This document shows, piece by piece, positions 13,683 through 49,502 of a DNA stretch of 56,628 nt. A program made the position numbers and the translations under genes. The notes below the pieces were generated by a model. The model ran no database searches and was not told where the DNA came from. It saw only the letters and a list, made by a program, of their open reading frames with translations. This stretch comes from Tsukamurella sp. 8F. Its GTDB lineage: Bacteria; Actinomycetota; Actinomycetes; Mycobacteriales; Mycobacteriaceae. The stretch lies in contig NZ_JARFTP010000027.1 in NCBI RefSeq assembly GCF_029167375.1, positions 1 through 56,628 on the forward strand. The letters run 5' to 3'. The number at the start of each line of letters is the position of its first letter. Positions within the stretch are counted from its first letter, which is position 1.

Positions 13683-13693
13683 GACCGCGTCCA

Positions 13694-13774: not shown

Positions 13775-14277
13775 CCGCCACGGAACCCACGATCCCGGTA
13801 ACGCCCACGCCTCTGCGCCGAACGCCGGCGGTGCGGGCGCTGTGCGCCGCGCTGGCGGCTGCTTTCGCCGTGGGAGTCGCCATGGGCGGATGGATCTACT
13901 CGCAGCGCGACCCCGTGGTCGCCGGATACGTGCCGTGGACGTCGGCGTGGACACAGCACTTCATCGTTGCGCTGGTCGGTGCGGCGCTGGCCCTGGCGAT
14001 CCTGCGGCTGCGTGACCCCCGGCCCCGGCTCGTGCGGCTGAGCCCGCTCCGGCTGGCAGCGGCCGCTCCCCTACTGCTGGTCCTGGCGTTCGCGGCGTTC
14101 CGCGCGGGCGTCCAGGTGCTGGCCGGACTGGACCCGAACTTCACCGTGAACGCGTGGGGCGGACCCACCTACATCGGTGCGATGGCATGCCACTATCTGG
14201 ATCTCGCGGTCGGCGCCACCGTCGTCGTGATGCTGCTGCGCTGGCTACTGACTCAGCGCGCGCCGAGCGCGGCCTGA
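13771..14277 (+). CDS. Four-helix membrane protein of unknown function
   Basis: A 168-residue integral membrane protein with about four hydrophobic helices (residues about 23-43, 63-80, 91-115 and 132-156). The loop between helices 1 and 2 contains SQRDPVVAGYVPWTSAWTQH. No catalytic motif is visible. The ATG overlaps the stop of a possible 26-residue frame. It probably belongs to the pabB transcript. Its 3' end overlaps that of rsmI by 25 bp. I do not recognise the family with certainty. Confidence 0.75.
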   Translation: MTATEPTIPVTPTPLRRTPAVRALCAALAAAFAVGVAMGGWIYSQRDPVVAGYVPWTSAWTQHFIVALVGAALALAILRLRDPRPRLVRLSPLRLAAAAPLLLVLAFAAFRAGVQVLAGLDPNFTVNAWGGPTYIGAMACHYLDLAVGATVVVMLLRWLLTQRAPSAA

Positions 14278-15107: not shown

Positions 15108-15123
15108 GACCAGACACCCTACG

Positions 15124-35112: not shown

Positions 35113-35174
35113 ATATCTCCCTTTCGCGCCCACTCCACCCTTTCGTCGGCAAGCTTACGACGGGGGTACGACAA

Positions 35175-35207
35175 CCGCCCGGACCTCGACGAACGAGGGC
35201 CGGGCGG
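35175..35207 (-). terminator. GC-rich hairpin terminator
   Basis: Arms 35175-35188 and 35194-35207 pair at 13 of 14 positions around a 5-nt loop (CCGCCCGG outer, CCTCG inner). It begins 13 nt after the stop of the NAD(P)-binding protein gene on the minus strand, as expected for an intrinsic terminator of that operon. Confidence 0.75.
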
Positions 35208-35219
35208 ATGCGGGACGGG

Positions 35220-35843
35220 TCAGTATGCGACCGAGAAGCGAGCGTTGCGGTGCCGCGGGACGACGATCTCGTCGACGAGCGCGGCGGCGTAGTCGGCACC
35301 GGAGATCTCGGAGTCACCGTCGGCATCGGCGAGGAGGACCTCACCGCCGATGCGGTAGGCGCCCGTGCGCTCGCCGGGGTTGAACGAGCCGTAGGACGCC
35401 GCGGGACTCAGGTAGAACCAGTCGATCCCCTCGAGCTCGCGCAGGTAGTCCAGGGCGCGATCGTGCTCGAGCGCGATCGGCTTGACCTCGTCGGGGAACG
35501 ACGGGGTGTCGACGAGGCGCGGGCCGTCCTCCGACCCGACGCGCAGGCTGCCGGCGCCGCCGACGACGGCGAGGCGGGCGCCGGTCGTACGGATTCCGGC
35601 CACCAGGGATGCGAGGGCGGTCGGCAGCTCGGGGCCGCTGCCGGCGGGGGCGCGGGTGGGCAGGGCGCTGACGACGACGTCGGCACCGTCGACGGCCTTC
35701 GCGACGAAGTCCGCGTCCGTGACGTCGCCGACCAGATCGCCACCGGACCGCGACACGGCGACGGTGTCGATGCCGCGTGAGCGGAGCTCGGCGACGATAT
35801 TGCCGCCGCTGTAACCGGAAGCTCCGAAGACCACGACCTTCAT
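35220..35843 (-). CDS. NAD(P)-binding Rossmann-fold protein (NmrA/YwnB-like)
   Basis: 207 residues of an atypical short-chain dehydrogenase fold. The N-terminus MKVVVFGASGYSGGNIVAEL carries the dinucleotide-binding GASGxxG loop; VVSALPTRAP, VVGGAGSLRV and WFYLSPAASYGSF follow as in the SDR5/NmrA group. It is probably an NAD(P)H-dependent reductase or redox-responsive regulator. Its ATG overlaps the stop of the upstream DoxX gene by 4 bp, so the two form an operon ending at the terminator at 35175. The divergent HxlR regulator probably controls it. Confidence 0.88.
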   Translation of the reverse strand: MKVVVFGASGYSGGNIVAELRSRGIDTVAVSRSGGDLVGDVTDADFVAKAVDGADVVVSALPTRAPAGSGPELPTALASLVAGIRTTGARLAVVGGAGSLRVGSEDGPRLVDTPSFPDEVKPIALEHDRALDYLRELEGIDWFYLSPAASYGSFNPGERTGAYRIGGEVLLADADGDSEISGADYAAALVDEIVVPRHRNARFSVAY

Positions 35844-36265
35844 CGGGCGTCCCCCTTCGCGAAGCGCTTCAGAACATGCGTGTCGGCGGCGAGCGGCCCC
35901 TGGTTCGCGAGGCCGACGGCGACGAGTCCGGCGATCAGCGCGAGCGGCAGCTCGTACCCGCCGATGAGGCCCTGCTCGCTGTGCGCGGTGAAGATGGCGC
36001 CGAGCATGTCGACGATCAGCACGACGGCGACCACGGGGATCGCGACGCCCACGATGAGTAGGACCCCGCCCGCGAGCTCCGCGATGCCCGAGAACCAGGC
36101 GGCCGCGTGCGGGGCGGGAACGCCCATCTTCTCGAAGCTGGCCCCGACGGCAGCGATGCCGTAGTCGCTGAACTTCTGCCAGCCGTGGGCGACGAACACG
36201 ATGCCGATGATCACCCGCGCGACGGTGGTCGCGGTGTTCTGGCCGTGAGTGAGCAGTCTGGTCAC
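35840..36265 (-). CDS. DoxX-family membrane protein
   Basis: A 141-residue four-helix protein of the DoxX family. GIVFVAHGWQKFSDYG, GIAELAGGVLLIVG and MLGAIFTAHSEQG with helices at about 14-32, 58-78, 80-100 and 105-125 match it. Members are linked to thiosulfate oxidation or oxidative-stress responses. Its stop overlaps the start of the Rossmann-fold gene. It diverges from the HxlR regulator; the gap contains an inverted repeat that could be its operator. Confidence 0.88.
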   Translation of the reverse strand: MTRLLTHGQNTATTVARVIIGIVFVAHGWQKFSDYGIAAVGASFEKMGVPAPHAAAWFSGIAELAGGVLLIVGVAIPVVAVVLIVDMLGAIFTAHSEQGLIGGYELPLALIAGLVAVGLANQGPLAADTHVLKRFAKGDAR

Positions 36266-36296
36266 TGAGGACTCCTGAGATCGATTGCTTGATGCT

Positions 36297-36313
36297 TCAA
36301 CTCTCCTAGTTGA
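36297..36313. promoter_or_regulatory. Inverted repeat in the DoxX/HxlR divergent promoter
   Basis: TCAACT-N5-AGTTGA between the divergent starts at 36265 and 36365. It is a plausible operator for the HxlR-family regulator encoded next to it. A second shorter inversion, TTGA-N4-TCAA, overlaps it on the left. Confidence 0.4.
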
Positions 36314-36364
36314 GCACAGACTTAGCGGAAGCGCAAATGAAAAGTAAGTGATAAATTGACGAGC

Positions 36365-36694
36365 ATGTTCGACGTGTTCGCCAAGGAGTGCCCCTCACGG
36401 CAGGTGTTCGCCCACGTCACGGGGCGTTGGGGCGCGTTGGTGATGGGTCGCCTGTCCACGGATCCGCACCGCTTCTCAGAGATCCGCCGCTCGATCGAGG
36501 GCATCAGCGACCGCATGCTCGCGCAGACACTGCGAGACCTCGTCGACGACGGGCTCGTGGTCCGAATCGACTCCGGCACCAATCCGCCACACACCGTCTA
36601 CCACCTGACGGAGCAGGGCGCGGTCGTCGCCGAGGCGGTGCGCGCACTCGTCGAGACCGTACAGTCGACGATGCCGACGCTGCCCGCGCACTAG
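36365..36694 (+). CDS. HxlR-family winged-helix regulator
   Basis: A 109-residue MarR-like winged-helix protein. The HxlR core WGALVMGRLSTDPHRFSEIR, GISDRMLAQTLRDLVDDGLV and VYHLTEQGAVVAEAV is complete. A Cys near the N-terminus (FAKECPSRQ) is at the position used for redox or electrophile sensing in HxlR/HypR-type proteins. ATG at 36365 is preferred to TTG at 36356. It probably represses the divergent doxX/reductase operon. Confidence 0.9.
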   Translation: MFDVFAKECPSRQVFAHVTGRWGALVMGRLSTDPHRFSEIRRSIEGISDRMLAQTLRDLVDDGLVVRIDSGTNPPHTVYHLTEQGAVVAEAVRALVETVQSTMPTLPAH

Positions 36695-36718
36695 AGGCTG
36701 CGCGCTACGGTCCGCGCG

Positions 36719-36904
36719 CTAGGGCTCGGGCAGAGCGGCGTCGAGGTACGCGAGCACCTCGGGGTCGCTGGTGCGGAGCCGGTCCGCGATCTCGCCACCG
36801 TCGCAGCGCCGCAGCGCGACCTCGGCCTCACCGGCGGCGCGCCACAGCACCGACCACGTTCCGCCCGAGTCCTCCCACCGCTGCAGAGTGCCGAGATCGC
36901 TCAC
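36719..36904 (-). CDS. Small conserved actinobacterial protein
   Basis: A 61-residue acidic protein (WEDSGGTWSVLWRAAG, LRRCDGGEIADRL, SDPEVLAYLD). The WxxSGGxWxV...CDGGEExDR pattern recurs in small actinobacterial proteins of unknown function. GTG at 36904 avoids overlap with the upstream Nudix gene (ends 36915); ATG at 36928 is the alternative. It is probably co-transcribed with the Nudix gene. Confidence 0.65.
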   Translation of the reverse strand: MSDLGTLQRWEDSGGTWSVLWRAAGEAEVALRRCDGGEIADRLRTSDPEVLAYLDAALPEP

Positions 36905-36914
36905 TCCCGCAACG

Positions 36915-37445
36915 TTACTCGTGTCCATGCCCGGCCCAGCGGTTCGACCGGCCGTCACTGCCGAAGGCGGGTGATCGGCGTCGTTCGCCGTTGATCGACT
37001 CGATCAGCACGCCTTCGGATCGCGCCGCCAGCGCCATGCGAACCCGACCGGCGAGCCGCGCAGAGGTGATGGTGTCCAACTCGTCGGGATGGAAGTACGC
37101 GTAGCTGCGCAACTCGTCCGGGGCGAGGCGCACCATGACGCCGTCGGGCAGGCCGAGTTCGTAGACGAACATCACCGAGTCCCCACGTGGCGGCGGATCC
37201 TGCTGGTGATCGATCACCAGCAACCGTCCCAGGTCGAAGTCCGTCAGCCCCAGCTCTTCGCCGACCTCGCGGACGCAGGCAGCGGGTGCACCCTCACCGC
37301 GCTCGACGGCGCCGCCAGGTATCTCCCACGTCTGCTTGTACGTGGGTTCGACCATCAGCACCCGCCCGTCACCATCGGTGATCAATGCTCCGGCCCCGAG
37401 CCGTGTCCTGGCGAGCGAAGCGTAGAAGTCGTCGACGGCGGACAT
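36915..37445 (-). CDS. Nudix hydrolase
   Basis: A 176-residue Nudix protein. The box GGAVERGEGAPAACVREVGE followed by ELGL is complete, with the metal-binding Glu residues in REVGEE. ALITDGDGRVLMVEPTYKQTWEIP is the usual lead-in. It hydrolyses a nucleoside-diphosphate-linked substrate, which cannot be identified here. ATG at 37445 gives a standard N-terminus (MSAVDDFYASLAR). The frame is open to 37622 but that part is not Nudix-like. Confidence 0.9.
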   Translation of the reverse strand: MSAVDDFYASLARTRLGAGALITDGDGRVLMVEPTYKQTWEIPGGAVERGEGAPAACVREVGEELGLTDFDLGRLLVIDHQQDPPPRGDSVMFVYELGLPDGVMVRLAPDELRSYAYFHPDELDTITSARLAGRVRMALAARSEGVLIESINGERRRSPAFGSDGRSNRWAGHGHE

Positions 37446-37676
37446 GCCAGCCACGATACCGACTGCCTGTGGCGCACCGGTGTCGAAGACGTTGCAGCAC
37501 ATGACGACACACCCGAAGAACGGCATCCGCCAACGACACATGCGCAGCCGAGTCAGCCGCATGGCGCGCGAGCGACGTGGTGACCGGACCGAGGCCGCGT
37601 TCGCGGCCGGACTCGGCCTCACTGTGTGACGTTCGGCTGTCCGGTGGACCCTGCGGCCATCGTCGCCGGGTCTGCG

Positions 37677-38948
37677 CTATTCGACAGCGATGGTCTTGGT
37701 GGCCTCGCCCAAGAGGTGGTCTCGTACCAGCGTGTCCGCTCGGTCCAGCGAACCGAGGTGCGTGGTCACGCGTTCGGGCCTCAGGGCGCCCGACGCCATG
37801 AGGTCGAGCACAGCGGGGATATTCGCGCGGGCGTGTGCACGGCCGAGATGGTGGGTGACGTTACGTCCGTACATCAAGGCCGTGGGGAGCTTGCTGCTGC
37901 GAGCGATCGACGAAAGCGAGACGCAGGTCCCGTCGGGTGCGGTGTGCTTGATCGCGGTGCCGATACCTGCCGATGTGCCGGTGCTGTCTACGACGAGCGG
38001 TACTCCGGGCAGCTTGCGAAGCTCTCGTGGCGTGAGCGGGTGCAGGCCTAGCGCCGCCGCGTGGCGACGGACATGTGGGCGACGGTCGACGAGATGTACG
38101 GTCCCCGCGCCCAAGGCCTTGGCGATGAGACCCGCGTACATCACCACGCTTGCGCTGAACGGCGGCCGCCGCCCGATCTCGGACAGGATCAGCACCTCGA
38201 CGCTGGGCCCTCGCGTCAGCAGATCCGGAAGATGCGGGGCCACAGCGCGATATCCGTCGACCACGTTGTCGGCGACCGATGCCGCCGCTGCCGGGTCGAC
38301 GCCGTTCGGGAGCGGGACCAGCATCCCATCGGCGTAAGGCACTGTCAGCAGGTCGGAGTACGCACCGCCCCAATGCCCGCCGGCCAACCCGAAGCCGTAC
38401 ATCGAGACCGGCGGAACGTCGACACAATTCGAGGTGAGACCGGAGCGACAAGGACCGCACGTGCCGCAGCTGATCTGGAACGGCACGACGACGCGGTCAC
38501 CGGGGTGGACCGTGGTGACCCGCTCGCCTACCTCGACCACCTCGGCGACGCACTCGTGCCCGAAGTGCATGGGTAGCGGAAAGGGTGTCCGGCCCAGGCC
38601 CATGGGGCGGTCGATGTCACACGTGGCAACCGCGATCGGATGGACGAGCGCGGCGAGCGGACCGGGAGCGGGCGGTGCTGGAACGTCATGCCATCCCACG
38701 CGTCCACCCGCTCCTATGATCAGAGCCCGCATCGTCCCGCGGCCAACGCGCCGACGCGCCCGCACGGCGCTCTTCAGACGCTCGGCCCGCTGCCGTGCGG
38801 ACCGCTCCAGCATGATCCTGGTCGCCGGGATGGCGGTGTCACCGGCGGCCACGCCGAGGAGGTGACGGACCCGCCCGAGCGGATGGTGCTGGGGCCCAAC
38901 GGGGTAACCGTAGGCCAGCGCCGGGTCGATCGACGGGAGGTCGTCCAT
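37677..38948 (-). CDS. Zinc-type medium-chain alcohol dehydrogenase with N-terminal extension
   Basis: The MDR core (from ATG at 38732, MRALIIGAGGRVGWHDVP) has the catalytic zinc site (HFGHECVAEVVEVGERV), the structural zinc Cys cluster (CGTCGPCRSGLTSNC) and a Rossmann domain. The glycine motif between SVEVLILSEIGRRPPF and VVMYAGLIAKALGAGTVHLVD is unusual. The same frame continues upstream to ATG at 38948, giving 72 extra residues with very high G+C at third positions and a start 11 bp after the DUF2867-like gene stop, preceded by GAGGCGG. I therefore favour 38948 (423 residues), with 38732 as alternative. Substrate unknown. Confidence 0.8.
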   Translation of the reverse strand: MDDLPSIDPALAYGYPVGPQHHPLGRVRHLLGVAAGDTAIPATRIMLERSARQRAERLKSAVRARRRVGRGTMRALIIGAGGRVGWHDVPAPPAPGPLAALVHPIAVATCDIDRPMGLGRTPFPLPMHFGHECVAEVVEVGERVTTVHPGDRVVVPFQISCGTCGPCRSGLTSNCVDVPPVSMYGFGLAGGHWGGAYSDLLTVPYADGMLVPLPNGVDPAAAASVADNVVDGYRAVAPHLPDLLTRGPSVEVLILSEIGRRPPFSASVVMYAGLIAKALGAGTVHLVDRRPHVRRHAAALGLHPLTPRELRKLPGVPLVVDSTGTSAGIGTAIKHTAPDGTCVSLSSIARSSKLPTALMYGRNVTHHLGRAHARANIPAVLDLMASGALRPERVTTHLGSLDRADTLVRDHLLGEATKTIAVE

Positions 38949-38959
38949 GAGCTGCCGCC

Positions 38960-39436
38960 TCACATCCCCTGCCGCGCTCGAGCTGCGCGCCGCAACCGCC
39001 AGGGGATCGTGAGGGAGTGAGCGGGCAACACCAGCGCCCACACCAGGCGCGCCAGCGGCCTCCGATAGTGCACCGACGTCGTCCAACCGACCGAGGCATC
39101 GTCGACTTCGACCACATTGGCAGCCGTGATCAACCAGGAGTCCTGGCGCAGCACCACCCGGTAGTCGCTGGAGCGGTCCAGACGCCAACCGAGAACGTGC
39201 TCACCGTCGCGGCGGGCCCCGAGTCTCAGACCGAGGACCGCGCGCCAGCCGATGACCAAGAACACCCGCATCGGCAAGGACGCCCCCTCGAAGACGTCCC
39301 GAGCCCACTCCTCCGCGGTCCGTCCGTCCCCTGCCGGCCGATCATGTCGGTGAACTCCCCGGAAGTCGTCGACGCACTCGCCGGCGCCGGCGATCCGTCC
39401 GTCACTCGGCCTCGGTGACGCGGGAGTTGGTTCCAT
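38960..39436 (-). CDS. DUF2867-like (SRPBCC-type) protein
   Basis: A 158-residue protein. RTAEEWARDVFEGASLPMR, GWRAVLGLRLGARRDGEHVL and YRRPLARLVWALVLPAHSL match the DUF2867 pattern as I remember it. It probably binds a hydrophobic small molecule, but function is unknown. The ATG at 39436 lies 14 bp from an 18-bp perfect palindrome shared with the divergent TetR gene. The ADH frame follows 11 bp downstream, so the two form an operon. Confidence 0.7.
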   Translation of the reverse strand: MEPTPASPRPSDGRIAGAGECVDDFRGVHRHDRPAGDGRTAEEWARDVFEGASLPMRVFLVIGWRAVLGLRLGARRDGEHVLGWRLDRSSDYRVVLRQDSWLITAANVVEVDDASVGWTTSVHYRRPLARLVWALVLPAHSLTIPWRLRRAARARQGM

Positions 39437-39450
39437 GACATGACATTAAG

Positions 39451-39468
39451 ATAATGAACGTTCATTAT
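39451..39468. promoter_or_regulatory. 18-bp perfect palindrome, TetR operator
   Basis: ATAATGAACGTTCATTAT is a perfect palindrome in the 60-bp gap between the DUF2867-like gene (minus) and the TetR gene (plus). Form and position are typical of a TetR-family operator. Its presence argues that TetR translation starts at GTG 39497 rather than at the ATG at 39467 that overlaps it. Confidence 0.85.
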
Positions 39469-39496
39469 GCAAGCGATCTCTACTATCTTGGCTCTT

Positions 39497-40108
39497 GTGA
39501 GCCGACCAACCCGAACACAGCCTCAACGTCGCGAGGAGACACGTAAACGACTGCTCGATGCCGCCGCCCGGGTGTTCGCGCGCACAGGAGCCAACGCGTC
39601 GGTCGCCGAGATCGCCGCGGAGGCCGACTGCTCCACGGGCGCCATCTACACCCACTTCTCGGGTAAGCGAGATCTACTACTGTCCGTGTTCGATCAGCGG
39701 TTCTCAGGCTGGGAAGGCGCATACATCGCCGCGGTCTCAGACAGCGACACGCCTCTCGGAGCCGCCGACGCCGCAGCACACCAGTGGACGCATGAGCGAG
39801 AAACCGAGCCCGCGCTCACGCAGCTGTACATCGAGTTCTGGATGGCAGCTCAGCGGGACAGCGAACTGGCGCAGGCGTTTCGCGAACGCCAAGCTCGGAT
39901 CATCGACGCGATGAGCTCCCTCATCGAGGACCGGCTCGAATCACTCGGCATGGAATCCGATGTCGCCAGCCCGGTACTGGGCGCCATCGCCACCGCGCTG
40001 GCCGACGGCTTCGCCCTTCAGCGTCTCGCCGGAACGAGCCCGGAAGCCGGCGAGATGCTGGCCACCGCGACGCGGCTCGTCGTGCAGGGCCTCACCAAGG
40101 ATCCATGA
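39497..40108 (+). CDS. TetR-family transcriptional regulator
   Basis: A 203-residue repressor. N-terminal HTH: RREETRKRLLDAAARVF, SVAEIAAEADCSTGAIYTHF and SGKRDLLLSVFD. The C-terminal ligand domain (about 60-203) is helical with TQLYIEFWMAAQRDSELAQ. GTG at 39497 is preferred because the earlier ATG at 39467 lies inside the palindromic operator. It is divergent from the DUF2867-like/ADH operon, which it probably represses, together with itself. Confidence 0.9.
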   Translation: MSRPTRTQPQRREETRKRLLDAAARVFARTGANASVAEIAAEADCSTGAIYTHFSGKRDLLLSVFDQRFSGWEGAYIAAVSDSDTPLGAADAAAHQWTHERETEPALTQLYIEFWMAAQRDSELAQAFRERQARIIDAMSSLIEDRLESLGMESDVASPVLGAIATALADGFALQRLAGTSPEAGEMLATATRLVVQGLTKDP

Positions 40109-40431
40109 GCGGTGCGCTACGTTCCCGCCCGCTCATCGATCCGGCCGTGAACCTGCGTCCACAGCCAGGCCGCGATGACGTCGTGCGTCGCACATCGGAA
40201 CTGGCGATGCTCCACAGCGCAGCCGATCCAACGACACCGCCCATGCAGCACATGACGCAGCCGATGTTCGGACTCGCCGCGGCGCAGACTGAGTTCCCGC
40301 CCACTTCGTGGCGCTGGTGGCGTTCGGGCGCCGCACGCCCATGGCGAAAGGCTGTGGCCTGAGCTGGAGAACCGAACCCTGCATTAGACTAAGGATGTCC
40401 TTACTGCAGCCAGAGGAGTGGTTCAACGGGC
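40109..40431. other. Intergenic stretch without a confident gene
   Basis: 323 bp between the TetR and AraC genes. Open frames on both strands (for example 40105-40362 plus and 40133-40582 minus) show no recognisable domain and mixed codon character. The left part may be degraded coding sequence. The right end holds an inverted repeat (40390-40403) and the AraC ribosome site. Confidence 0.5.
40390..40403. promoter_or_regulatory. Inverted repeat upstream of the AraC/ABC/ECF locus
   Basis: TAAGGA-TG-TCCTTA, 29 bp before the AraC start. The half-sites resemble those of metal-responsive DtxR-family boxes only loosely; it does not match the 19-bp iron-box consensus. It is a candidate operator for the locus. 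Confidence 0.35.
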
Positions 40432-41283
40432 ATGACGAGCGGTTCTGACGGGCCTGACGCAGCGGCCCGGCGTCACTTCGCGGACGAGGACGTGGGGCCC
40501 GGTTGGGAAGTGGTCCGTGCTGCTCGTTCCCTTGAACGTCGCCTCGACATCTCGTTGACCGGCTTCCGCCAGATCGGGGCACGAGGTCTGGACATGCGGC
40601 CGCGTCCGCTGCCGGCCGTCACCGTCGGAATAGAGCTCGGTGCCGACACCCTGACGCTCGACACCGTGGACGATCGGCAGAAGCTGCGGAGCGCCGTCGC
40701 CGGATTAGCTCATACGTCTACCCGCATCACGGGAACCGGCGTGGATCACATCGAACTCCGGATGCCTCCCTTCACGGCATTCACTCTGTTGGGCGGCGCT
40801 TTGTCAGAACTGAACGGCAATATGGTCGGCTTGGTGGATGTGTGGGGTCCGTACGCGACGCAGCTAGGTGAGCAGTTGGCGCGCCGGACAAGCTGGAGTG
40901 AGCGATTTGCCGTCGTCGAGACGGCGCTCGCCGTTCGTCTGGAGTCGGGTGCAGTGCCGGACCCGGAGATTCGCGGCGCCTGGGCACGAATCCTGGCGAC
41001 AGGCGGTTCGACGCGCATCGATCGACTGGCCGTCGAGTGCGGGTGGAGCCGGAAGCGATTGTGGACCCGATTCACGGCTCAGATCGGTGTGACCCCTAAA
41101 CGAGCGGCGATGCTCGTTCGATTCGATGCGGCCGCTCGCCGTCTACAGGCCGGAGAAGACCCGGCCGAGGTAGCCGTGGCCTGCGGATACGCAGACCAGG
41201 CGCATCTGCATCGCGATGTGCGAGATTTCGCCCGGTGCACACCGCGTGAACTCGCAGCCGAGGCGCTGCGACCTGCTTCTTGA
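40432..41283 (+). CDS. AraC-family transcriptional regulator
   Basis: A 283-residue protein with a C-terminal double HTH: RIDRLAVECGWSRKRLWTRF, IGVTPKRAAMLVRFDAAARR and EVAVACGYADQAHLHRDV. The N-terminal about 180 residues form an unassigned sensor region. It lies 138 bp upstream of five overlapping transport genes in the same direction. AraC-type activators such as YbtA control metallophore import in other bacteria, so a similar role is plausible (inference). Codon choice is less GC-biased than in neighbouring core genes, suggesting acquisition. Confidence 0.88.
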   Translation: MTSGSDGPDAAARRHFADEDVGPGWEVVRAARSLERRLDISLTGFRQIGARGLDMRPRPLPAVTVGIELGADTLTLDTVDDRQKLRSAVAGLAHTSTRITGTGVDHIELRMPPFTAFTLLGGALSELNGNMVGLVDVWGPYATQLGEQLARRTSWSERFAVVETALAVRLESGAVPDPEIRGAWARILATGGSTRIDRLAVECGWSRKRLWTRFTAQIGVTPKRAAMLVRFDAAARRLQAGEDPAEVAVACGYADQAHLHRDVRDFARCTPRELAAEALRPAS

Positions 41284-41421
41284 TGCTGCGACAACTGGGT
41301 CGGGCTCGGGAACAATCGTTCAATACGCGGCCACGGGCGAGACGCCATCCTGAGCGGCATACAGTCCGTGCCCCGCTCCCAGCGCCATCCATGCGGAGCT
41401 GAACCCGTATGGAGGTGATCG

Positions 41422-43182
41422 ATGGCGGAGGCGATCGAAGCGACTGCCAAGGAGCGCAAGGCGGCGCGGGCCGCGCTCGAGGAAGTCCGGGCACCGGTCG
41501 AGGGCTCGATCCGTCTTGGCTGCGTGATCGGCGCAGTGGGCGCGCTCGCCGGCCTGGCTCCGTTTGTCGGTCTGGTCGGGGTGATCCACGAACTGCTGGA
41601 GGAGCCGCTCGATCGGGGCGCGCTCATGGCGTGGTGCGTGTTCATCGTCATCTGCCTGGTCGCCAAGGCCGTGCTGAGCTTCGTCGCGTTGGGGATCACA
41701 CATTTCGCGGATGTCCGTCTGCAGGCGATCCTGCGCCGGCGAATCGTGGCTCACCTCGGCCGCGTACCACTCGGGTGGTTTGGTGAGCAATCGTCGGGGC
41801 GGGTGCGAAAGGCCGCGATGGGGGACGTTCACGACCTGCACCAGATGGTGGCACATCACGCGGTCGAGATGACGGCCGCGATCACCATGCCCATCGGTGG
41901 CCTGGCCTACCTGCTCTTCCTCGACTGGCGGCTGGCGCTACTCGCGCTGGCATCGTTGCCGCTCTATGTCGCGCTCTACGCGTGGATGATGCGCGGATTC
42001 AGCGAGCAGATGCGGCGGATGGACGACGGCAACGCCCGGATCAGCGCTGCAGTCGCGGAGTTCGTCAGCGGGATAGCGGTGGTGAAGACCTTCGGACAGG
42101 CGAGGCAGGCCCACCAGGCCTACCGGAGCGCGGCCGAGGACTTCGTGTCCTTCTTCTCCGCGTGGGCACGCCCGATGCTGCGACTCGAGTCAGTCGCGGG
42201 GATGGCGATCTCGGCACCTGTTGTCGGGCTGCTGACCACCGCCGGGGTGGCCTGGTTCGTCGACCAGGGCTGGGTGGAGGTCTCCGAAGGCTTGGCTTGC
42301 GTACTGGTCGCCCTCGTGCTGCCGAGCACGATCCAGCCGTTGGTATACGCCGCGCAGAATCGCCGTACCGCGGAAGCAGCGGCCGTGCGCATCCACGACC
42401 TGTTGGGCACGCCCGAACTGGCGGTCGCTGCGAACCCGGGAATCCCGTCCGGTCATCGGGTCGAGTTCGACGGGGTCCGATTCACCTATGACGGTGTCAC
42501 CGACGTCCTGCACGCGGTGACGCTGACGTGTGCACCTGGCACAGTTACCGCCCTGGTCGGCCCCTCGGGATCGGGCAAGTCGACCCTCGCGGCGTTGCTA
42601 CTTCGCTTCCACGACGTGTCCGGTGGGGCGATCCGGATCGGTGGTGTCCCGGTCGACGAGGTGGACCCGGTCGGGCTCTACCACAGGGTCGGGTTCGTGC
42701 TCCAAGACGTGCAGCTCCTGCACGCTTCGGTGCGGGACAACGTCCGGCTGGGACGACCCGACGCTCACGATGACGACATCGAGCGGGCCTGCGTCGCCGC
42801 GCGGATACATGACCGCATTCTGGCCCTGCCCCGCGCGTACGACAGCGTGATCGGTGAGGACGCGCTGCTCTCCGGAGGCGAGGCGCAACGGGTGTCGATC
42901 GCCCGGGCACTGCTGGCCGACGCCCCGGTGCTGGTGCTGGACGAGGCCACGGCCTTCGCAGACCCGGAGTCGGAGTCGGCCATCCAGGACGCGCTCTCGG
43001 AGCTTGCGCAGGGGCGCACAGTGCTGGTGATCGCCCACCGGTTGCGAACGATCGCGGGAGTCGACCTGATCGCCGTCCTCGACCGGGGCCAAGCGGTCGA
43101 GACGGGTCGCCACGACGAGCTGCTGGCCGCCGGCGGGCTCTACGCCCGGATGTGGGCCGCTCGCGAGGGGGAAGATCGATGA
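41422..43182 (+). CDS. ABC half-transporter 1 (exporter-fold permease-ATPase)
   Basis: 586 residues: six membrane helices (about 35-300) then an ATPase domain with Walker A GPSGSGKST, Q-loop VLQDVQLL, signature LSGGEAQR, Walker B VLVLDEATA and IAHR H-loop. No leader-peptide domain. Such proteins export drugs or lipids, but the YbtP/YbtQ and IrtA/IrtB subfamilies import iron-siderophores. TATGGAGGTG precedes the ATG. The stop overlaps the next gene (ATGA). It probably heterodimerises with the next protein. Substrate unknown. Confidence 0.9.
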   Translation: MAEAIEATAKERKAARAALEEVRAPVEGSIRLGCVIGAVGALAGLAPFVGLVGVIHELLEEPLDRGALMAWCVFIVICLVAKAVLSFVALGITHFADVRLQAILRRRIVAHLGRVPLGWFGEQSSGRVRKAAMGDVHDLHQMVAHHAVEMTAAITMPIGGLAYLLFLDWRLALLALASLPLYVALYAWMMRGFSEQMRRMDDGNARISAAVAEFVSGIAVVKTFGQARQAHQAYRSAAEDFVSFFSAWARPMLRLESVAGMAISAPVVGLLTTAGVAWFVDQGWVEVSEGLACVLVALVLPSTIQPLVYAAQNRRTAEAAAVRIHDLLGTPELAVAANPGIPSGHRVEFDGVRFTYDGVTDVLHAVTLTCAPGTVTALVGPSGSGKSTLAALLLRFHDVSGGAIRIGGVPVDEVDPVGLYHRVGFVLQDVQLLHASVRDNVRLGRPDAHDDDIERACVAARIHDRILALPRAYDSVIGEDALLSGGEAQRVSIARALLADAPVLVLDEATAFADPESESAIQDALSELAQGRTVLVIAHRLRTIAGVDLIAVLDRGQAVETGRHDELLAAGGLYARMWAAREGEDR

Positions 43183-44933
43183 TCTCCGATCTCGAGTTGT
43201 TGCTGGGTCCAGAGCGCCGCGGAGTGTTGCGGACCCTACTGGGATGGACCGTGCTGTGCGGGGTGCTCAGTGGGTTGGCCGGCGTGGCGCTGGTGCCGGC
43301 ATTCGCGCACCTGGCCGCGGGCGAGCTCGGCGAATTGCCCGGCGACGTGCTTCTCATCGCTGCGGCAACGCTGGCCGCGTGTGTCGTGCAGTACATCCAG
43401 TCGATGAAGCGTTTCAGGGTCTCGCTGGAAGTAATGGGCACGGTGCATCGACGCCTCGGTGACCACCTGGTGACGCTTCCCTTGGGGTGGTACGACGAAG
43501 AGCGGACCGGGAAGCTGTCGAAGTCCGCGACCCAGGGTGCGTTCATGATCTCGGGGCTGTTCTCGGAACTGCTCACCCCGGTGATCGTCGGTACCACCGC
43601 TCCGGCCACGGTGACGGCGGCCATGCTGTTCTACGACTGGCGTCTCGGCGTGGTCGCCCTGGTCTGCATCCCGGTGCTCGCGCTCGCCTTCAGCTTCAGC
43701 GCCCGCTGCCTCGGCCGCGGGGAGAGGCTTGATCATGCCGCAGCCGCGGCGGCCGGCAGCCGGGTGATCGAGTTCGCTCGCAGCCAAGCGGCGCTGCGGG
43801 CGTTCGGCCGCGGCATCGAGGGCTATCAGCCGCTGGACGACGCGATCGAGCGGCAGCAGCGCAACGGCCGACGCTCGCTGTGGCTGTCCGGGGCGGGGAT
43901 CCTCACCGGCGGAGTCACCGTGCAGTTCGTACTGACTGCGCTGCTGATCGCGAGCGTCTGGCTGGCCGCCGACGGGCAGGTCACCGCGACCTCGGCCGTC
44001 GCTCTGCTCGCTCTGGCCTTCCGCTTCGCCGGTCCGCTGGCCCAAGCGGGCGAGTTGGCCGGTGTGTTGCGGATGGCAGGCAACGATCTGCGGCGGGTTG
44101 CCCAGGTGCTCCGCGAACCCGCGATGCCAGAGCCGCAGACGCCGACGAAGCCGGTCCGACCCGGTGCGATCGAGCTCGACGGAGTCGGATTCGGTTATCG
44201 AGCCGACGAGCCGGTACTGCGAGAGGTGTCCTTCTCCGTACCCCCGCGGTCGATGACCGCGCTGGTCGGTGCGTCCGGCTCCGGAAAGACTACGATCACG
44301 CGACTGATCGCCCGATTCTGGGACGCGGACACGGGAGTCGTGCGAGTCGGTGGTGTGGACGTCCGGGATCAGAGCACCGAAGACCTGATGGCGCAGCTCG
44401 CCGTGGTCTTCCAGGACGTCTACCTCTTCGATGACACGCTCGAGGCCAACATCCGATTGGGCCGGCCCGGCGCCACAGACGACGAGGTGCGCGAGGCCGC
44501 CCACTTGGCGGGCGTGGACGAGATCATCGATCGGTTGCCCGATGGCTGGTCGACCCGCGTCGGCGAGGCCGGGGCCCGGCTTTCGGGCGGCGAGCGCCAG
44601 CGAGTCTCGGTCGCCCGGGCGCTGTTGAAGGACGCACCGATCGTGCTCCTCGACGAGGCCACTGCCGCCCTCGACCCGGAGAACGAGCGTTTCGTCCAAC
44701 GGTCGCTGCATCGTCTGGCGCAGCGGAGCACATTGCTCGTGATCGCTCATCATCTCGACACCGTGGTGACGGCGGACCAGATCGTCGTGCTCGATGAGGG
44801 TCAGGTGGCCGAGATCGGGACGCACAGCGAACTGTTCGCCCGCGGCGGCCGCTATGCCGCGTTCTGGGAATCGCGCCGCAGCGCGCGGGGTTGGCGGTTG
44901 GACAGCGCAGCAAAGAGGAGATCACGAGCGTGA
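43179..44933 (+). CDS. ABC half-transporter 2 (exporter-fold permease-ATPase)
   Basis: 584 residues with the same layout as the previous protein: six helices (about 20-290), Walker A GASGSGKTT, Q-loop VFQDVYLF, signature LSGGERQR, Walker B IVLLDEATAALD and IAHHLD H-loop (His-His where IAHR is usual). Both sites look intact. Starts inside the end of transporter 1 (4-bp overlap) and ends inside the start of the S component (GTGA), so translation of the three is coupled. Confidence 0.9.
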   Translation: MISDLELLLGPERRGVLRTLLGWTVLCGVLSGLAGVALVPAFAHLAAGELGELPGDVLLIAAATLAACVVQYIQSMKRFRVSLEVMGTVHRRLGDHLVTLPLGWYDEERTGKLSKSATQGAFMISGLFSELLTPVIVGTTAPATVTAAMLFYDWRLGVVALVCIPVLALAFSFSARCLGRGERLDHAAAAAAGSRVIEFARSQAALRAFGRGIEGYQPLDDAIERQQRNGRRSLWLSGAGILTGGVTVQFVLTALLIASVWLAADGQVTATSAVALLALAFRFAGPLAQAGELAGVLRMAGNDLRRVAQVLREPAMPEPQTPTKPVRPGAIELDGVGFGYRADEPVLREVSFSVPPRSMTALVGASGSGKTTITRLIARFWDADTGVVRVGGVDVRDQSTEDLMAQLAVVFQDVYLFDDTLEANIRLGRPGATDDEVREAAHLAGVDEIIDRLPDGWSTRVGEAGARLSGGERQRVSVARALLKDAPIVLLDEATAALDPENERFVQRSLHRLAQRSTLLVIAHHLDTVVTADQIVVLDEGQVAEIGTHSELFARGGRYAAFWESRRSARGWRLDSAAKRRSRA

Positions 44934-45547
44934 GCCAGGAACAGACGTCTCCGGAGGAGGCCGATCCGACCCACCGCGACCGTCCATTGGTGACGGCGAG
45001 CGGAGAGCGGCTGCTCAGTACTCGCACACTGATGACATGCGCTGCGATCGCTGTCGGTGCCAGTGTCTTCTCCATCCCGGTGGCGTGGGCCGAGGCTGCC
45101 GTCGGCGCCTCGCTGCCGGTGCTGTACGCGGCGATGGCGGGCGCCTGGGTGTTCGGCTCAGTCCTGGCGCAGGCGTTGCTGCGACAGGGCGGCGTTGCCC
45201 TCGTCACCGCGGTGCTGATGGGTCTGATCAGCGCGATCACCACTCCGCTGGGCTGGTCAACGGGGGCCGGCTTCGTGCTCATCGGGTTGCTGCTGGAGCT
45301 GCCGTTCCTGTGCGTGCGCTATCGACGCTGGCCGACCTGGCTGTTCCTGCCCGGTCCGCTGCTGGTCGGATTCCTTTTCAACGCTCTTCCGCTCGCGTTC
45401 GTGCTCCGCGCCGGCGCGCTACAGCCGATCGCGTTCGCGCTGGTGCTGACCCTGCCCTTGGTGTCGTGCGTACTGGCGACCGTCCTCGCAATCGTGATCG
45501 CACGCAGGCTGCGTCGTGCAGGTCTGGGACCGCAGCAGGCCCCGTGA
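44930..45547 (+). CDS. ECF transporter substrate-specific (S) component
   Basis: A 205-residue membrane protein with about six helices (from residue 36), consistent with an energy-coupling-factor S component of the MptD/Trep_Strep or YkoE-like kind; GVALVTAVLMGLISAITTPL and LVGFLFNALPLAF are in the helices. The N-terminus is hydrophilic. It sits directly before the ECF ATPase and T genes, overlapping both neighbours by 4 bp. Substrate is unknown; S components take vitamins, metals or their complexes. Confidence 0.75.
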   Translation: MSQEQTSPEEADPTHRDRPLVTASGERLLSTRTLMTCAAIAVGASVFSIPVAWAEAAVGASLPVLYAAMAGAWVFGSVLAQALLRQGGVALVTAVLMGLISAITTPLGWSTGAGFVLIGLLLELPFLCVRYRRWPTWLFLPGPLLVGFLFNALPLAFVLRAGALQPIAFALVLTLPLVSCVLATVLAIVIARRLRRAGLGPQQAP

Positions 45548-47262
45548 GTCCCGCCGATGGCGTGGGGGAGGTACTGCGGGTTACCGATGTCGGGGTGCGC
45601 TTCCACAACGCACAACGCGATCTGCCTTCCCACGCGACCCTGCGGATCGCGCCGGGCGAGTTGGTGTTGCTGCTCGGGCCATCCGGCTGCGGCAAGTCCT
45701 CGTTGTCGCTGACGTTCAACGGTCTGGTTCCGCACTCGGTGCCAGCCGGCTACCGGGGGCAGGTGATGGTGTGCGATCTCGACGTCGCGGCCACTCCGGT
45801 CGCCGAGCTGGCCAGGCGGGTCGGCATGGTGTTCCAAGATCCCGATGCCCAGATCGTCAGCACGTCGGTGCTCGACGAGGTCTGCTTCGGCTTAGAGAAC
45901 CTCTGCACGCCCGTCGACCTGATCGAGCCTCGGGCCAGGGACGCTTTGGGCCGGGTCGGGCTGGAGCATCTGGAGAACGCCGACCCACACCTGATGTCCG
46001 GAGGGGAGAAGCAGCGTGTGGCACTGGCGTGCGCGCTTGCGTTGGAGCCCGCTTTGCTCCTGCTCGACGAGCCGACCGCGAACCTCGACCCCGCCGGCCG
46101 TGCAGCGTTCTACGACCTGCTCCCGGACCTGCTCGCAGCCGGGACCGCGGCAGTGCTGATCGAACACGAGCTCGACGACGTGATCGACAAGGTCGATCGC
46201 GTGGTGGTGTTCTCCGCCGCCGGGGACACGATCGTGGCCGGCACACCCGAAGAGGTCATGGAGGTTCACGGCGATGTCATGGTCGCCGAGGGTGTGTGGC
46301 TGCCGACCGCCGTCCGCTTGCACCGAGCGCTCGCCGCATCGGGAAAGGCCGGTAGTAGCCTCCCGCTGACCCGCGCCGATCTGCGACCCGAGGGCTACGG
46401 CGCTCGGCTCGGCCGGCTCGGCGTCACGCCGCCTGTTCCACGACCAACGGAGCGGGTTCCCGAGACCACCGGCGTCGAGGTCGTCGATCTCGTGGTCGAG
46501 CGAGACCGTCGACGGATCATCGACGGAATGTCGTTCCGGGCACCCGGTGGGGCGATCACTGCGCTCGTCGGGGTCAACGGCGCAGGAAAGTCCACCGTGC
46601 TGCACGCGATCGCCGGCCTCCTGCCCTCGTCCGGCACCATCGTCATCCCAACAGGGCGGACCGCGGTGCGGCCGGGCTACGTGTTCCAGAATCCCGAGCA
46701 TCAGTTCCTCACCGACCGGGTCTCCGACGAACTGGCGTTCGGGCCGCGCCGGTTGGGGTGGCCGAAGGAGCGCGTCCGTTCCGCGGTCGAAGATCAGCTC
46801 GCGCGTTTCGGGCTTACCGACCTGGCCGATCGCAACCCGTTCCTGCTCTCCGGCGGCCAGAAACGCCGTCTGTCCGTCGCCTCCGCGCTGATCACCCAGC
46901 CACCGCTGTTGCTGTTGGACGAACCGACGTACGGCCAAGACCACCGCAACGCCACCGAGATGATGCGACTGCTACAGGAGCTGAGTAACGACGGCACGAC
47001 CGTGCTGCTGGTCAGCCACGACCTGCAGCTGGTCGCCGAGCACGCTGAACGTGTCGTCGTGCTTCACGGCGGTCGGGCGGCCGTCGCGGGGACGGCGCAC
47101 GAGGTACTCGGCAACCCGCGCGTCGTCGCATCGGCCGGATTGCGTCTGCCGCCGATGGCCCGGATCGCGGCCCGCGCCGCGCAGGAAGTCACGGGGTGGA
47201 CCGGTTTGCTACGTGAGCGGGACCTCGACTGCCCTAGCACCGATGGCTCGGATCCGCGATGA
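45544..47262 (+). CDS. ECF transporter fused double ATPase (A-A') component
   Basis: 572 residues with two ABC ATPase domains in one chain. Domain 1: LGPSGCGKSS, FQDPDAQIVS, MSGGEKQRVAL and LLLLDEPTANLD. Domain 2: VGVNGAGKST, FQNPEHQFLT, LSGGQKRRLSV and LLLLDEPTYGQD. The Q-helix QDPD/QNPE motifs are characteristic of ECF ATPases. GTG at 45544 overlaps the S gene. It should power uptake with the S and T proteins. Its stop overlaps the T gene (ATGA). Confidence 0.92.
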   Translation: MSPADGVGEVLRVTDVGVRFHNAQRDLPSHATLRIAPGELVLLLGPSGCGKSSLSLTFNGLVPHSVPAGYRGQVMVCDLDVAATPVAELARRVGMVFQDPDAQIVSTSVLDEVCFGLENLCTPVDLIEPRARDALGRVGLEHLENADPHLMSGGEKQRVALACALALEPALLLLDEPTANLDPAGRAAFYDLLPDLLAAGTAAVLIEHELDDVIDKVDRVVVFSAAGDTIVAGTPEEVMEVHGDVMVAEGVWLPTAVRLHRALAASGKAGSSLPLTRADLRPEGYGARLGRLGVTPPVPRPTERVPETTGVEVVDLVVERDRRRIIDGMSFRAPGGAITALVGVNGAGKSTVLHAIAGLLPSSGTIVIPTGRTAVRPGYVFQNPEHQFLTDRVSDELAFGPRRLGWPKERVRSAVEDQLARFGLTDLADRNPFLLSGGQKRRLSVASALITQPPLLLLDEPTYGQDHRNATEMMRLLQELSNDGTTVLLVSHDLQLVAEHAERVVVLHGGRAAVAGTAHEVLGNPRVVASAGLRLPPMARIAARAAQEVTGWTGLLRERDLDCPSTDGSDPR

Positions 47263-48071
47263 CCCCGCGTGTCCGCGGCATGCTGCGTAGGCGCAACCCG
47301 CTCGCGAAGATGCTCGCCACGCTGCCGGCGTTCGTCCTGGTCGTGCTGACCTCGAGCATTCCGGTGACGACGGCGGTCCTCGTGATCGCCGTCGCCGCGC
47401 TCGCCCTCTGGGGTGGACTCGGCGCCCGCCGCATAGTGGGCGTGTCGGCGTTGCTCGTCGCCGCGACCGCCGTAATGACGCTGTCGCTGTCGCTGATCGT
47501 GCGCCCGGACCTCGTTGCCGAGACCCCGGTCCTGTTGCGGATCGGCGGCTGGGAGTACCGCACGGGGCCGCTCGAGATCGGGCTGACCGCCGGGTCCCGG
47601 GTCAGCGCGATGATCGCCGTGATGCTGGTCAGCGGACTGACCACGTCTGGTCAGGACGTGGTCCTGGCCTGCGTGCAGCAGCTACGCCTGCCTTACCAGG
47701 TCGGGTATGTCGCGCTCGCCGCGGCCGAGTTCATTCCCCGGCTACGGCGGGAGCTGGACGTGATCCGCGCCGCGCACACCGTTCGTGGGGCACCGGCCGG
47801 CCATGGTCTGGTGGCGGCGCTGCGTCGCACGGCCGGGTATGCGGTCCCGTTGCTGGCGAGCAGCGTGCGTCACGCCGAGAGGGTGTCGATGTCGATGGAC
47901 GCACGGGGTTTCGGGTCTGCGCAGCACCGCACCGAACGGCGAACCGTATCCTGGCATCGCACGGACCGGCTGTTCGTCCTCGCTTGCTGGGTCGTCACCG
48001 GCCTCGGATACGGCACGGCCGCCGTACTCGGCATGCTCGGCCCGCTTGGATTCTGGGTGGCACCTGGATAA
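47259..48071 (+). CDS. ECF transporter transmembrane (T) component
   Basis: A 270-residue scaffold protein with helices at about 20-55, 58-80, 105-128 and 230-255. The two coupling-helix signatures are AAHTVRG and SMDARGFG; their Ala-Arg-Gly motifs dock onto the ATPases. It starts with MTPRVRGMLRRRNPLAK, including the usual NPLAK lead-in. Last gene of the five-gene unit, followed by the palindromic terminator at 48106. Confidence 0.9.
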   Translation: MTPRVRGMLRRRNPLAKMLATLPAFVLVVLTSSIPVTTAVLVIAVAALALWGGLGARRIVGVSALLVAATAVMTLSLSLIVRPDLVAETPVLLRIGGWEYRTGPLEIGLTAGSRVSAMIAVMLVSGLTTSGQDVVLACVQQLRLPYQVGYVALAAAEFIPRLRRELDVIRAAHTVRGAPAGHGLVAALRRTAGYAVPLLASSVRHAERVSMSMDARGFGSAQHRTERRTVSWHRTDRLFVLACWVVTGLGYGTAAVLGMLGPLGFWVAPG

Positions 48072-48105
48072 GCAGACCTACTCTCGACCGGCCTCACCCG
48101 GATAC

Positions 48106-48139
48106 AAACCTGCCCCGCGTGATCACGCGGGGCAGGTTT
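48106..48139. terminator. 34-bp perfect palindrome, bidirectional terminator
   Basis: Two 17-bp arms (48106-48122 and 48123-48139) are exactly complementary, GC-rich in the middle with AAACC and GGTTT ends. It is 34 bp after the ECF T stop on plus and 17 bp after the tRNA-Ala 3' end on minus, so it can terminate both. Confidence 0.85.
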
Positions 48140-48156
48140 CGAGTTCTGAACTTCAG

Positions 48157-48229
48157 TGGAGCTAAGGGGAATCGAACCCCTGACCTCCTCGATGCGAACG
48201 AGGCGCGCTACCAACTGCGCTATAGCCCC
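48157..48229 (-). tRNA. tRNA-Ala (anticodon CGC)
   Basis: A 73-nt cloverleaf begins GGGGCTATAGCGCAGTTGGT; the anticodon stem-loop is CCTCG-TTCGCAT-CGAGG with CGC anticodon; the T-arm has GGTTCGATTCC; the acceptor pairs GGGGCTA with TAGCTCC and contains the G3-U70 wobble that identifies tRNA-Ala. Discriminator A; CCA is not encoded. Its 3' end faces the ABC/ECF locus. Confidence 0.97.
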
Positions 48230-48275
48230 TCGGTACGGAACCTCGAATACTGTAGCAAGGGTCCGTCCGTACCTG

Positions 48276-49502
48276 CTAACCGACCCGTCGGGCAGGGTAT
48301 TCACGCAGTTCAGAGGCCTCTTCCTGCTCCCGGCGGAGAAAGTCGAACTCTTCCGCCCGGTAGCGCGGGAGATGATCGAACGCGGGGTCCTCGTCGTCGG
48401 CCTCCATGACGATGCAGCCGTACCTGCGGAGGTACGCGGGCACACCATCGACGACCTCGCCCTCGCGTTCCCGCTCGCGCCGGGCTCGCGCCAGGCGGGC
48501 CATGCGCCGTCGGCGGATCTCGCTCTCGATACGCACCGTGCGGCGCAGGTACGCCAGGTAGACGACGAGAGCGACGACGGCCGCGCCGAATCCGTACCAG
48601 GCGAACGGCACCTTCGCGACGGATGCCACCAGGCCGACGACCGCCAGCAACCCCAGCACGAACGTCACGCGCTGCCGGAAACGGTACTTCGCCGCGGAGA
48701 TGCGGGCATCGTTCTCGGGATCGAAACCGCCACGGCGGCGCGGAGATTCGTCCCCGTCGATCGGCTCGACCGGCGCATCGTGAGCCTCGTCCTCGAAAGT
48801 CTCGTCCTCGTAGGCCTCGTCTTCATACGCCTCGTCCTCGTAGGCGTCGTCGGCATCCAGCTCGTCGGAGTCCGTCGCCTCGTCCGTCTCGACGTGCTCG
48901 GCGACGGGCTCATCGTCGGTGTCCTCTGATGTCTCCGACTCCGCGACCGGGGCGGAGACCTCCACGGGTTCCATCTCGAGTGTCGGCCCGTCGATCTGAA
49001 GCGTGGGCGGGTTGAGGCGCCCGGAGTCCAGACCGGAGCGTGCGGGCTCGGACGGTTCGTCGGTCACCGTCGGCATCTCCTGCGTGGGCGAGTCGAGGTC
49101 GCGGCCGGGCTCGTCGACGTCGTAGTCGACGTAGGCGTGGGCCTCCTGCTCGACGCCGTCTCGGGCTACGACGGTGTTCGGCCGGTCCAGGTCCTCGACC
49201 ACGTCGATGTCGTCCGCGCCGGTCTCGCGAAGATCGGGGTCGTCCAGCTCGGCATCGTCCAGCTCGGCGTCCGGCTCCGTATCGCTGCGATCGGGCCGGT
49301 ACTGATACGGAGCCAGGTCGTCCGGCATCGGGCGCACCTTGCGCTTGAGCTGCAGACGCGCAGAGCCGCCGCGGTGCAGCAGACGCGTCTTGAGCGTGGC
49401 GTCGCTGACGGCGTTGACCTTCGGGTGGCGGGCGACGAACATCGGGACGAGCACCACCAGCCAGGCGACGATCAACCCCACCCACAGCACGGATGTCGGC
49501 AT
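48276..49502 (-). CDS. glpR: Divisome membrane protein GlpR/SepX family
   Basis: 408 residues: N-terminal membrane helix (about 5-22), acidic disordered middle (about 60-255) with a fourfold YEDEA/FEDEA repeat at about 220-241, two further helices (about 279-317) and an Arg/Glu-rich tail. It has the same order as Rv0996 beside rimJ and moeA1. In Corynebacterium glutamicum GlpR is the membrane receptor of the MoeA-like protein Glp, which binds FtsZ; in Streptomyces the family member SepX acts in division. The partner gene (moeA-like) lies upstream here. ATG at 49502. Confidence 0.85.
   Translation of the reverse strand: MPTSVLWVGLIVAWLVVLVPMFVARHPKVNAVSDATLKTRLLHRGGSARLQLKRKVRPMPDDLAPYQYRPDRSDTEPDAELDDAELDDPDLRETGADDIDVVEDLDRPNTVVARDGVEQEAHAYVDYDVDEPGRDLDSPTQEMPTVTDEPSEPARSGLDSGRLNPPTLQIDGPTLEMEPVEVSAPVAESETSEDTDDEPVAEHVETDEATDSDELDADDAYEDEAYEDEAYEDETFEDEAHDAPVEPIDGDESPRRRGGFDPENDARISAAKYRFRQRVTFVLGLLAVVGLVASVAKVPFAWYGFGAAVVALVVYLAYLRRTVRIESEIRRRRMARLARARREREREGEVVDGVPAYLRRYGCIVMEADDEDPAFDHLPRYRAEEFDFLRREQEEASELREYPARRVG

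Follow-up and report, generated by a model that had tools for sequence, protein, structure and literature searches.

The window analysed here is a stretch of 56,628 nucleotides from Tsukamurella sp. 8F (contig NZ_JARFTP010000027.1, positions 1 to 56,628 of the forward strand), and the system in question is a run of six genes in it which encodes an AraC regulator, two ATP-binding cassette (ABC) half-transporters and an energy coupling factor (ECF) transporter with its substrate-specific (S) component, double ATPase and transmembrane (T) component. Judged from sequence, this run is probably an acquired unit for the utilisation of an iron-siderophore (metallophore), in which two transporters serve one substrate class in one membrane. 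The AraC protein would probably sense the loaded siderophore and turn on a translationally coupled operon of five genes. The ECF arm would capture and import the ferric siderophore by means of a rebuilt S component of YkoE fold. The heterodimer resembling IrtAB and YbtPQ would serve the same class of substrate, acting as a second importer like YbtPQ and IrtAB or returning emptied siderophore, as has been proposed for EqbK/EqbL. This account of substrate, regulation and direction of the exporter-fold pair is built on gene content, protein families, the predicted fold, the recurrence of the pairing, and the links of sister ECF operons to genes of siderophore-interacting proteins (SIP) and to iron boxes. 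A wider proposal, to which slightly less than even chances are given, is that an entire YkoE-type S subfamily exchanged vitamin B1 for ferric siderophores as substrate, has SIP reductases in its operons and DtxR/IdeR control, and is connected here to an AraC sensor and an IrtAB-like pair. ECF siderophore importers would then have arisen in at least two S families, Trep_Strep and YkoE, each joined to exporter-fold siderophore transporters.

The gene run and the candidate operator in front of it are arranged as follows.

40390..40403, no strand assigned: near-palindrome TAAGGATGTCCTTA, 5' of the AraC gene, candidate operator
40432..41283, + strand: AraC-family transcriptional regulator (HTH_18, 7.8e-14)
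41422..43182, + strand: ABC half-transporter 1 (ABC1), IrtA/YbtP type (ABC_membrane and ABC_tran)
43179..44933, + strand: ABC half-transporter 2 (ABC2), YbtQ/IrtB type (ABC_membrane and ABC_tran)
44930..45547, + strand: ECF S component, divergent YkoE-like subfamily (PF09819, 2.6e-10)
45544..47262, + strand: double ECF ATPase, YkoD lineage (two ABC_tran; TIGR04520 and TIGR04521 above cut-off)
47259..48071, + strand: ECF T component, CbiQ family (PF02361, 1.4e-21)

Calls of open reading frames (ORFs) and Pfam domains confirmed the gene order which a first, sequence-only reading of this DNA had described. The 4-bp overlaps it had seen are exact at all four junctions of the five transport genes (ATGA at 43179, GTGA at 44930, GTGA at 45544, and ATGA at 47259); the AraC gene is not overlapped and is separated from ABC1 by 138 bases. 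The overlaps suggest, at most, that the five-gene operon is translationally coupled, and the fixed production ratio that had been read into them was an extrapolation of that reading. Walker A, signature, Walker B, and H-loop motifs were found in both half-transporters and in both halves of the double ATPase. As in Group I ECF transporters, a dedicated S component, a T component and two ATPase domains are encoded together.

The S component, whose descent from YkoE was not recognised in the earlier reading, is the unusual part of the unit. It has a predicted YkoE fold and matched no Pfam family other than PF09819 at 0.001, hence it is not of the Trep_Strep (MptD) type, and its gene is followed by those of ATPase and T component in the same order as in canonical YkoE loci. 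The divergent kind to which it belongs can be separated from the canonical one by profile score. A thiamine pyrophosphate (TPP) riboswitch (THI-box) was detected in all eight canonical loci searched out of 12 fetched, which served as positive control, and neither in the window nor in any of eight divergent loci searched. The thiamine-contact positions Tyr46, Trp49, Glu77, Gln95, and Asp131 read A, W, S, I, and L in the window protein, the last one N instead of L in a pairwise alignment, so that Trp49 is the contact kept. Only two of the five distinguish canonical from divergent rows. Position 95 is Q or E in 12/12 canonical and 0/55 divergent rows, and position 131 is acidic in 11 of 12 canonical rows and in one of the 55 divergent ones, with the window protein non-acidic there; S rows below 60 bits or 140 residues were excluded from this count and the 55 divergent rows include several per locus. 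The S component looks like a binding protein converted from vitamin B1 uptake, with a rebuilt vitamin pocket. Thiamine or its precursor hydroxymethylpyrimidine (HMP) as the main reading of the ECF arm was rejected on the riboswitch search, the pocket residues, and the finding that the genome encodes ThiC. Near one canonical TPP-controlled YkoE locus (L073, 5976-6206) a HEARO RNA (RF02033) was observed.

Another finding concerned the double ATPases. In a midpoint-rooted tree the window ATPase shares a group (99/96) with the ATPases of five divergent, riboswitch-less operons, next to six canonical ATPases and far from 11 which are linked to Trep_Strep S components. The ATPase of a further locus with an exporter and a YkoE-like ECF transporter (L025, described below) is placed just outside the group of canonical and divergent rows. 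From the positions of the Trep-linked, the L025 and the window ATPases it follows that ECF modules of three places in the tree adjoin exporter pairs.

The link to iron comes from sister operons with the divergent S kind. A SIP gene is present in nine of 49 divergent loci (L019, L021, L024, L273, L278, L280, L282, L283, and L287) and in 0/12 canonical YkoE loci, a contrast which is weak alone because the canonical set is small. Two of these genes were confirmed with hmmscan (Pfam). A genome search with PF04954, to which three genomes were added, gave a match at all nine places, split in two pieces in L287, and 2-9 matches per genome, with 4-9 in the genomes of the nine loci, some of them partial; with so few matches per genome the placement of SIP genes inside the divergent operons is far from random. 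Eight of the nine SIP-bearing loci come from two genera. A DtxR/IdeR-like 19-mer, defined by at most six mismatches to an IdeR consensus, lies 5' of the S gene in 9/48 divergent loci as compared to 6/310 other first genes in these loci (p 1.8e-5, kinship ignored), and in none of the 12 canonical loci, in which a wider stretch was scanned. Two predicted IdeR sites of the same form as the consensus are quoted in a published report (PMC2991359). In seven operons (L021, L024, L278, L280, L283, L284, and L287) two S components surround one ATPase/T module, and in these two-S operons the SIP gene mostly stands beside the second S gene, as if one motor served two siderophores.

Each of the two half-transporters of the window consists of a membrane domain and an ATPase, as a heterodimer of the IrtAB/YbtPQ type requires. 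Compared with PDB sequences, ABC1 scored best with IrtA (371 bits), followed by YbtP (305) and MsbA (242), and ABC2 reached 331 bits with YbtQ, 305 with IrtB, and 258 with MsbA. Two-domain P-glycoprotein-like chains score 412 against ABC2 by summing two repeats, and the best single domain of the three top chains of this kind yields 214 bits. No other solved exporters come as close to the two halves as IrtA/B and YbtP/Q. No siderophore-interacting domain was found on ABC1 with Pfam; the first half of another pair of the same genome (L102) bears one. At least four further IrtAB-like pairs occur in this genome (L100-L103, on contigs C70, C34, C45, and C23 of G000), and the pair of L101 adjoins a Peripla_BP_2 protein.

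A tree of half-transporters with 60 rows was calculated by a quick method with Shimodaira-Hasegawa-like approximate likelihood ratio (SH-aLRT) support only and with no named drug exporter included. Six rows fell outside, five of them from other exporters of the own genome (L103_8169, L105, and L106) and one from L153. All remaining rows stand together, including the genome's IrtAB-like pair with the siderophore-interacting domain and its C1 pair (L104). ABC1 and ABC2 each belong to a supported clade of ten rows (98 and 99), and as the same nine partner loci are found in both clades the two genes probably travelled together. The nearest rows of both halves are L136 and L137, with at most 51-52% identity; support for the exact sister branch is 87 for ABC2, and the branching order is not fixed for ABC1. 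The pairs of L136 and L137 lie in surroundings of nonribosomal peptide synthetase (NRPS) and polyketide synthase (PKS) genes, with an NRPS and a PKS of acyltransferase, ketoreductase and carrier domains (AT-KR-carrier) in both, and a ketosynthase seen in L136 only. In domain order these neighbours presumably resemble mycobactin clusters. A further clade pair (L147) adjoins an AMP-binding/carrier protein, and three others (L142, L143, and L145) adjoin ECF genes. In this tree the window's half-transporters group with siderophore-context pairs, which together with the nearest solved structures bears out the kinship with YbtPQ and IrtAB suggested by the sequence-only reading. A zincophore version is hinted at by one pair of the same clade (L141, 7226-13649), whose neighbours are an ABC-3 permease, a ZnuA binding protein and an ATPase-like ORF.

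The recurrence of exporter pairs with ECF genes was examined in a census based on an ABC1 search over 396 genomes of the phylum, with three candidates scored per genome and places taken among the matches listed. It comprised 65 loci, namely, 60 fetched neighbourhoods, the choice of which followed score in most cases rather than context, and five sites in the own genome; L105 and L106, which are other exporters of this genome, were excluded. S component, T component and double ATPase stand beside the half-transporters, on the same strand and within 4 kb, in 17 of the 65 loci, and a partial set was found in three more. By hidden Markov model (HMM), all 17 complete loci have an S component of Trep_Strep type and none has one of the YkoE kind, the Trep_Strep model having been built from six proteins with a family assignment by Pfam or NCBIfam. 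SIP genes or domains occur in 9/65 exporter loci. The regulator recurs as well: in the fetched stretch an AraC gene was present in 12/17 loci with full ECF set, one of three with a partial one, and 12/45 others, and hence in 24 of 62 exporter-pair loci (17 + 45). For the 17 loci with full ECF against the 45 others Fisher p is 0.002, and without the two loci whose AraC proteins went into the AraC model the share is 10/15 and p 0.007. No AraC gene was found in 12 canonical and 48 divergent YkoE-type loci, L025 and the window being outside these 60. These counts indicate that the AraC gene accompanies the exporter pair, and more so the kit with ECF, in line with the connection drawn in the earlier reading.

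Outside the census sample, a second exporter locus with a YkoE-like ECF transporter was found in L025 (G250, 3201-15555), where the order is AraC, binding protein, fused exporter pair, S, SnoaL-like protein, S, S, double ATPase, T, and binding protein, the two flanking binding proteins being Peripla_BP_2. Three YkoE-like S components are here encoded with one ECF module. In L267 (7496-14570) a divergent YkoE-like ECF is followed by two weakly similar exporter-like ORFs (180 and 223 bits), possibly a further independent pairing. L025 and L267 are the only two of 49 divergent loci with exporter-like ORFs; since the other 47 have none in the fetched stretch, this S gene is separable from the ABC pair, which the earlier reading had named as a refuting outcome. 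Within the census, L143 (264-15991) contains two complete units of exporter and Trep_Strep ECF in tandem, one of them with fused halves, and adjoining AraC and TetR genes. The genes of TenA, a permease and a ThiY-like (NMT1) protein lie back to back with the exporter pair of L139 (7651-13995), by chance or because of a link to thiamine precursors.

The unit was probably acquired, because the operon is absent from the other genomes of the genus that were compared. Apart from the own genome, whose contigs yielded at least one locus when scanned with S-derived patterns, the 100 relatives searched gave no match to the S component, and a single-sequence search detected it in ten of 396 phylum genomes, the own one included. 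A profile of S with canonical relatives included matched in 77/394 genomes of the class and 79/120 genomes of the family of G365. For ABC2 no relative above 44% was found in 15 other genomes of the genus. Two features follow the operon.

48106..48139, no strand assigned: perfect 34-base palindrome, hairpin-capable, 3' of the T gene, possible transcript end
48156-48229, opposite strand: tRNA-Ala (CGC), beyond the palindrome

Transfer RNA genes are usual insertion sites. A repeat search of 35000-48400 gave no copy of the tRNA-Ala end among the matches listed and no island ends, and the GC content is fairly level around the operon. The palindrome, at first taken for a terminator, is not among the results of the terminator scan, as it lacks a T tail. 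Siderophore biosynthesis genes were not detected among the operon and flanking genes given to Pfam/NCBIfam, and NRPS condensation domains of the same genome are located on other contigs. With these domains and the further IrtAB-like pairs elsewhere in the genome, the substrate may equally well be the product of an unlinked own cluster or a foreign siderophore.

Both transporter types are ATP-driven systems of the inner membrane, so the pair and the ECF arm would act in parallel and not as the two stages of uptake considered in the sequence-only reading. The metallophore which that reading had suggested is still the best substrate class, most likely in the form of a siderophore. Several observations weigh against the iron-siderophore unit. 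The window has no IdeR-like 19-mer at six or fewer mismatches to the consensus, the best fit at the site of TAAGGATGTCCTTA still having eight, and HMMs found no SIP, Peripla_BP_2 or FecCD gene in it. The evidence from SIP genes and boxes stems from relatives which are about 30-45% identical and mostly of one family, with kinship ignored; SIP was not seen in 40/49 divergent loci and the box not in 39/48. For ten divergent S genes (L020, L022, L023, L261, L270, L274, L275, L276, L281, and L290) the fetched stretch shows neither a T component nor a convincing double ATPase, and their module is perhaps encoded elsewhere, like that of group II S components. As the operon is absent from the 15 other genomes of the genus, the exact unit offers no conservation test.

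Among the rival explanations, an ECF arm which imports thiamine or HMP like YkoEDC and has no more than an operon in common with an unrelated siderophore transporter is very improbable. It would fit the YkoE fold, the canonical S-ATPase-T order, the position of the ATPase in the YkoD part of the tree, the retained Trp49, and the exporter pair beside TenA and a ThiY-like protein in L139, but the riboswitch of the canonical loci, the glutamine at 95 and the acidic residue at 131 are all lost and ThiC is encoded in the genome. Still less credit is given to the idea that the half-transporters form an AraC-controlled pump for multidrug or toxin efflux and that the ECF genes downstream of them are unrelated. 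In its favour, efflux is often under the control of AraC-type activators, MsbA-like exporters head the 25 NCBIfam models shown per half, though all below cut-offs, and the summed two-domain P-glycoprotein scores beat YbtQ for ABC2. The single-domain scores are, however, below YbtQ, IrtA tops the list of ABC1, the tree places the halves with siderophore-context pairs, and gene overlap and repeated ECF pairing also speak against it; PDB scores, single-domain check and tree led to this reading being disfavoured. Uptake of another metallophore or metal, such as zinc, copper, cobalt or nickel, is rather unlikely but has to be taken more seriously, as the same-clade pair of L141 adjoins a ZnuA/ABC-3 metal importer and a survey of Staphylococcus mentions that an equibactin-like system with ECF may target another metal (PMC12709192). 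Against it stand the links of the window's ECF lineage to SIP genes and DtxR/IdeR-like boxes, and no Zur-like site was found in the window in a consensus scan. The most serious competitor, with a chance of roughly one in three, is a variant of the iron-siderophore unit in which labour is divided: import of the ferric siderophore falls to the ECF arm, and true export or recycling of the emptied one to the exporter-fold pair. In Streptococcus equi an iron-toxicity phenotype is described as prevented by deletion of eqbHIJ and not of eqbKL, and the medium of the eqbKL mutant as less active, for which the authors suggest possible efflux (PMC3672683). Against this variant, the nearest relatives with solved structures are importers, namely, IrtAB and YbtPQ, but sequence does not reveal the direction of transport.

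Should ferric siderophores be the substrates of the divergent YkoE subfamily, S components would have a wider substrate range than their annotation suggests, and many genes that bear thiamine or cobalt in their names would be misnamed. So far ECF transporters have been known chiefly for vitamins and nickel/cobalt, with haem a recent addition. With ECF modules of three tree places beside IrtAB-like pairs the question arises why both are needed in one cell, and whether "importers" of the exporter fold may at times work in the outward direction and so recycle siderophore.

To our knowledge no exporter-fold pair belongs to the haem-scavenging ECF transporter of Staphylococcus lugdunensis. Like the unit proposed here it serves iron acquisition, but its substrate is haem (PMC7299338). 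The thiamine transporter YkoEDC, as described in PMC5037267, shares with the window the S fold, the double ATPase, the T component and the gene order; the window differs by having no TPP riboswitch, by the loss of key contacts, and by the exporter-fold pair joined to it. IrtAB, which imports mycobactin, and YbtPQ, which imports yersiniabactin, are the closest solved relatives of the halves, and AraC-type control has been reported for yersiniabactin uptake, matching the AraC gene here. In contrast to them, ABC1 has no siderophore-interacting domain and the pair is coupled to an ECF transporter. The loci of the phylum in which an exporter pair adjoins a Trep_Strep (MptD) ECF (L143, L151, L180, and others) have the same kit, with AraC in 12/17; unlike in the window, the S component is of the PF09605/TIGR02185 kind, and 11 of their double ATPases are on another branch of the tree. 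A literature search for a siderophore role of YkoE-type units or of ECF with IrtAB-like units gave, among the matches listed, nothing beyond equibactin. A streptococcal sia operon was considered as another precedent and set aside, PMC9237417 offering only a related title among its references.

Equibactin is the experimental precedent which, together with the 17 census loci, means that such a combination has been met before. In S. equi, eqbHIJ are reported to be needed for equibactin-dependent iron accumulation, whereas this accumulation does not depend on eqbK and eqbL, which share 28-30% identity with YbtP/YbtQ and possibly serve export (PMC3672683). A table in PMC8754150 gives eqbH, I, and J as ECF substrate-specific component, transmembrane component, and duplicated ATPase, and eqbK and L as a heterodimeric efflux ABC transporter. 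Both systems thus combine, within one cluster, the three ECF components (S, T, and double ATPase) and a pair of YbtPQ-like half-transporters. The eqb genes, according to these sources, are part of a biosynthetic cluster with a DtxR-like regulator and are ordered S-T-ATPase-ABC-ABC, whereas the window has AraC, the order ABC-ABC-S-ATPase-T, and a YkoE-type S component. The pairing of exporter-fold halves with ECF is therefore already known from equibactin, and the S component derived from YkoE is what sets the Tsukamurella unit apart.

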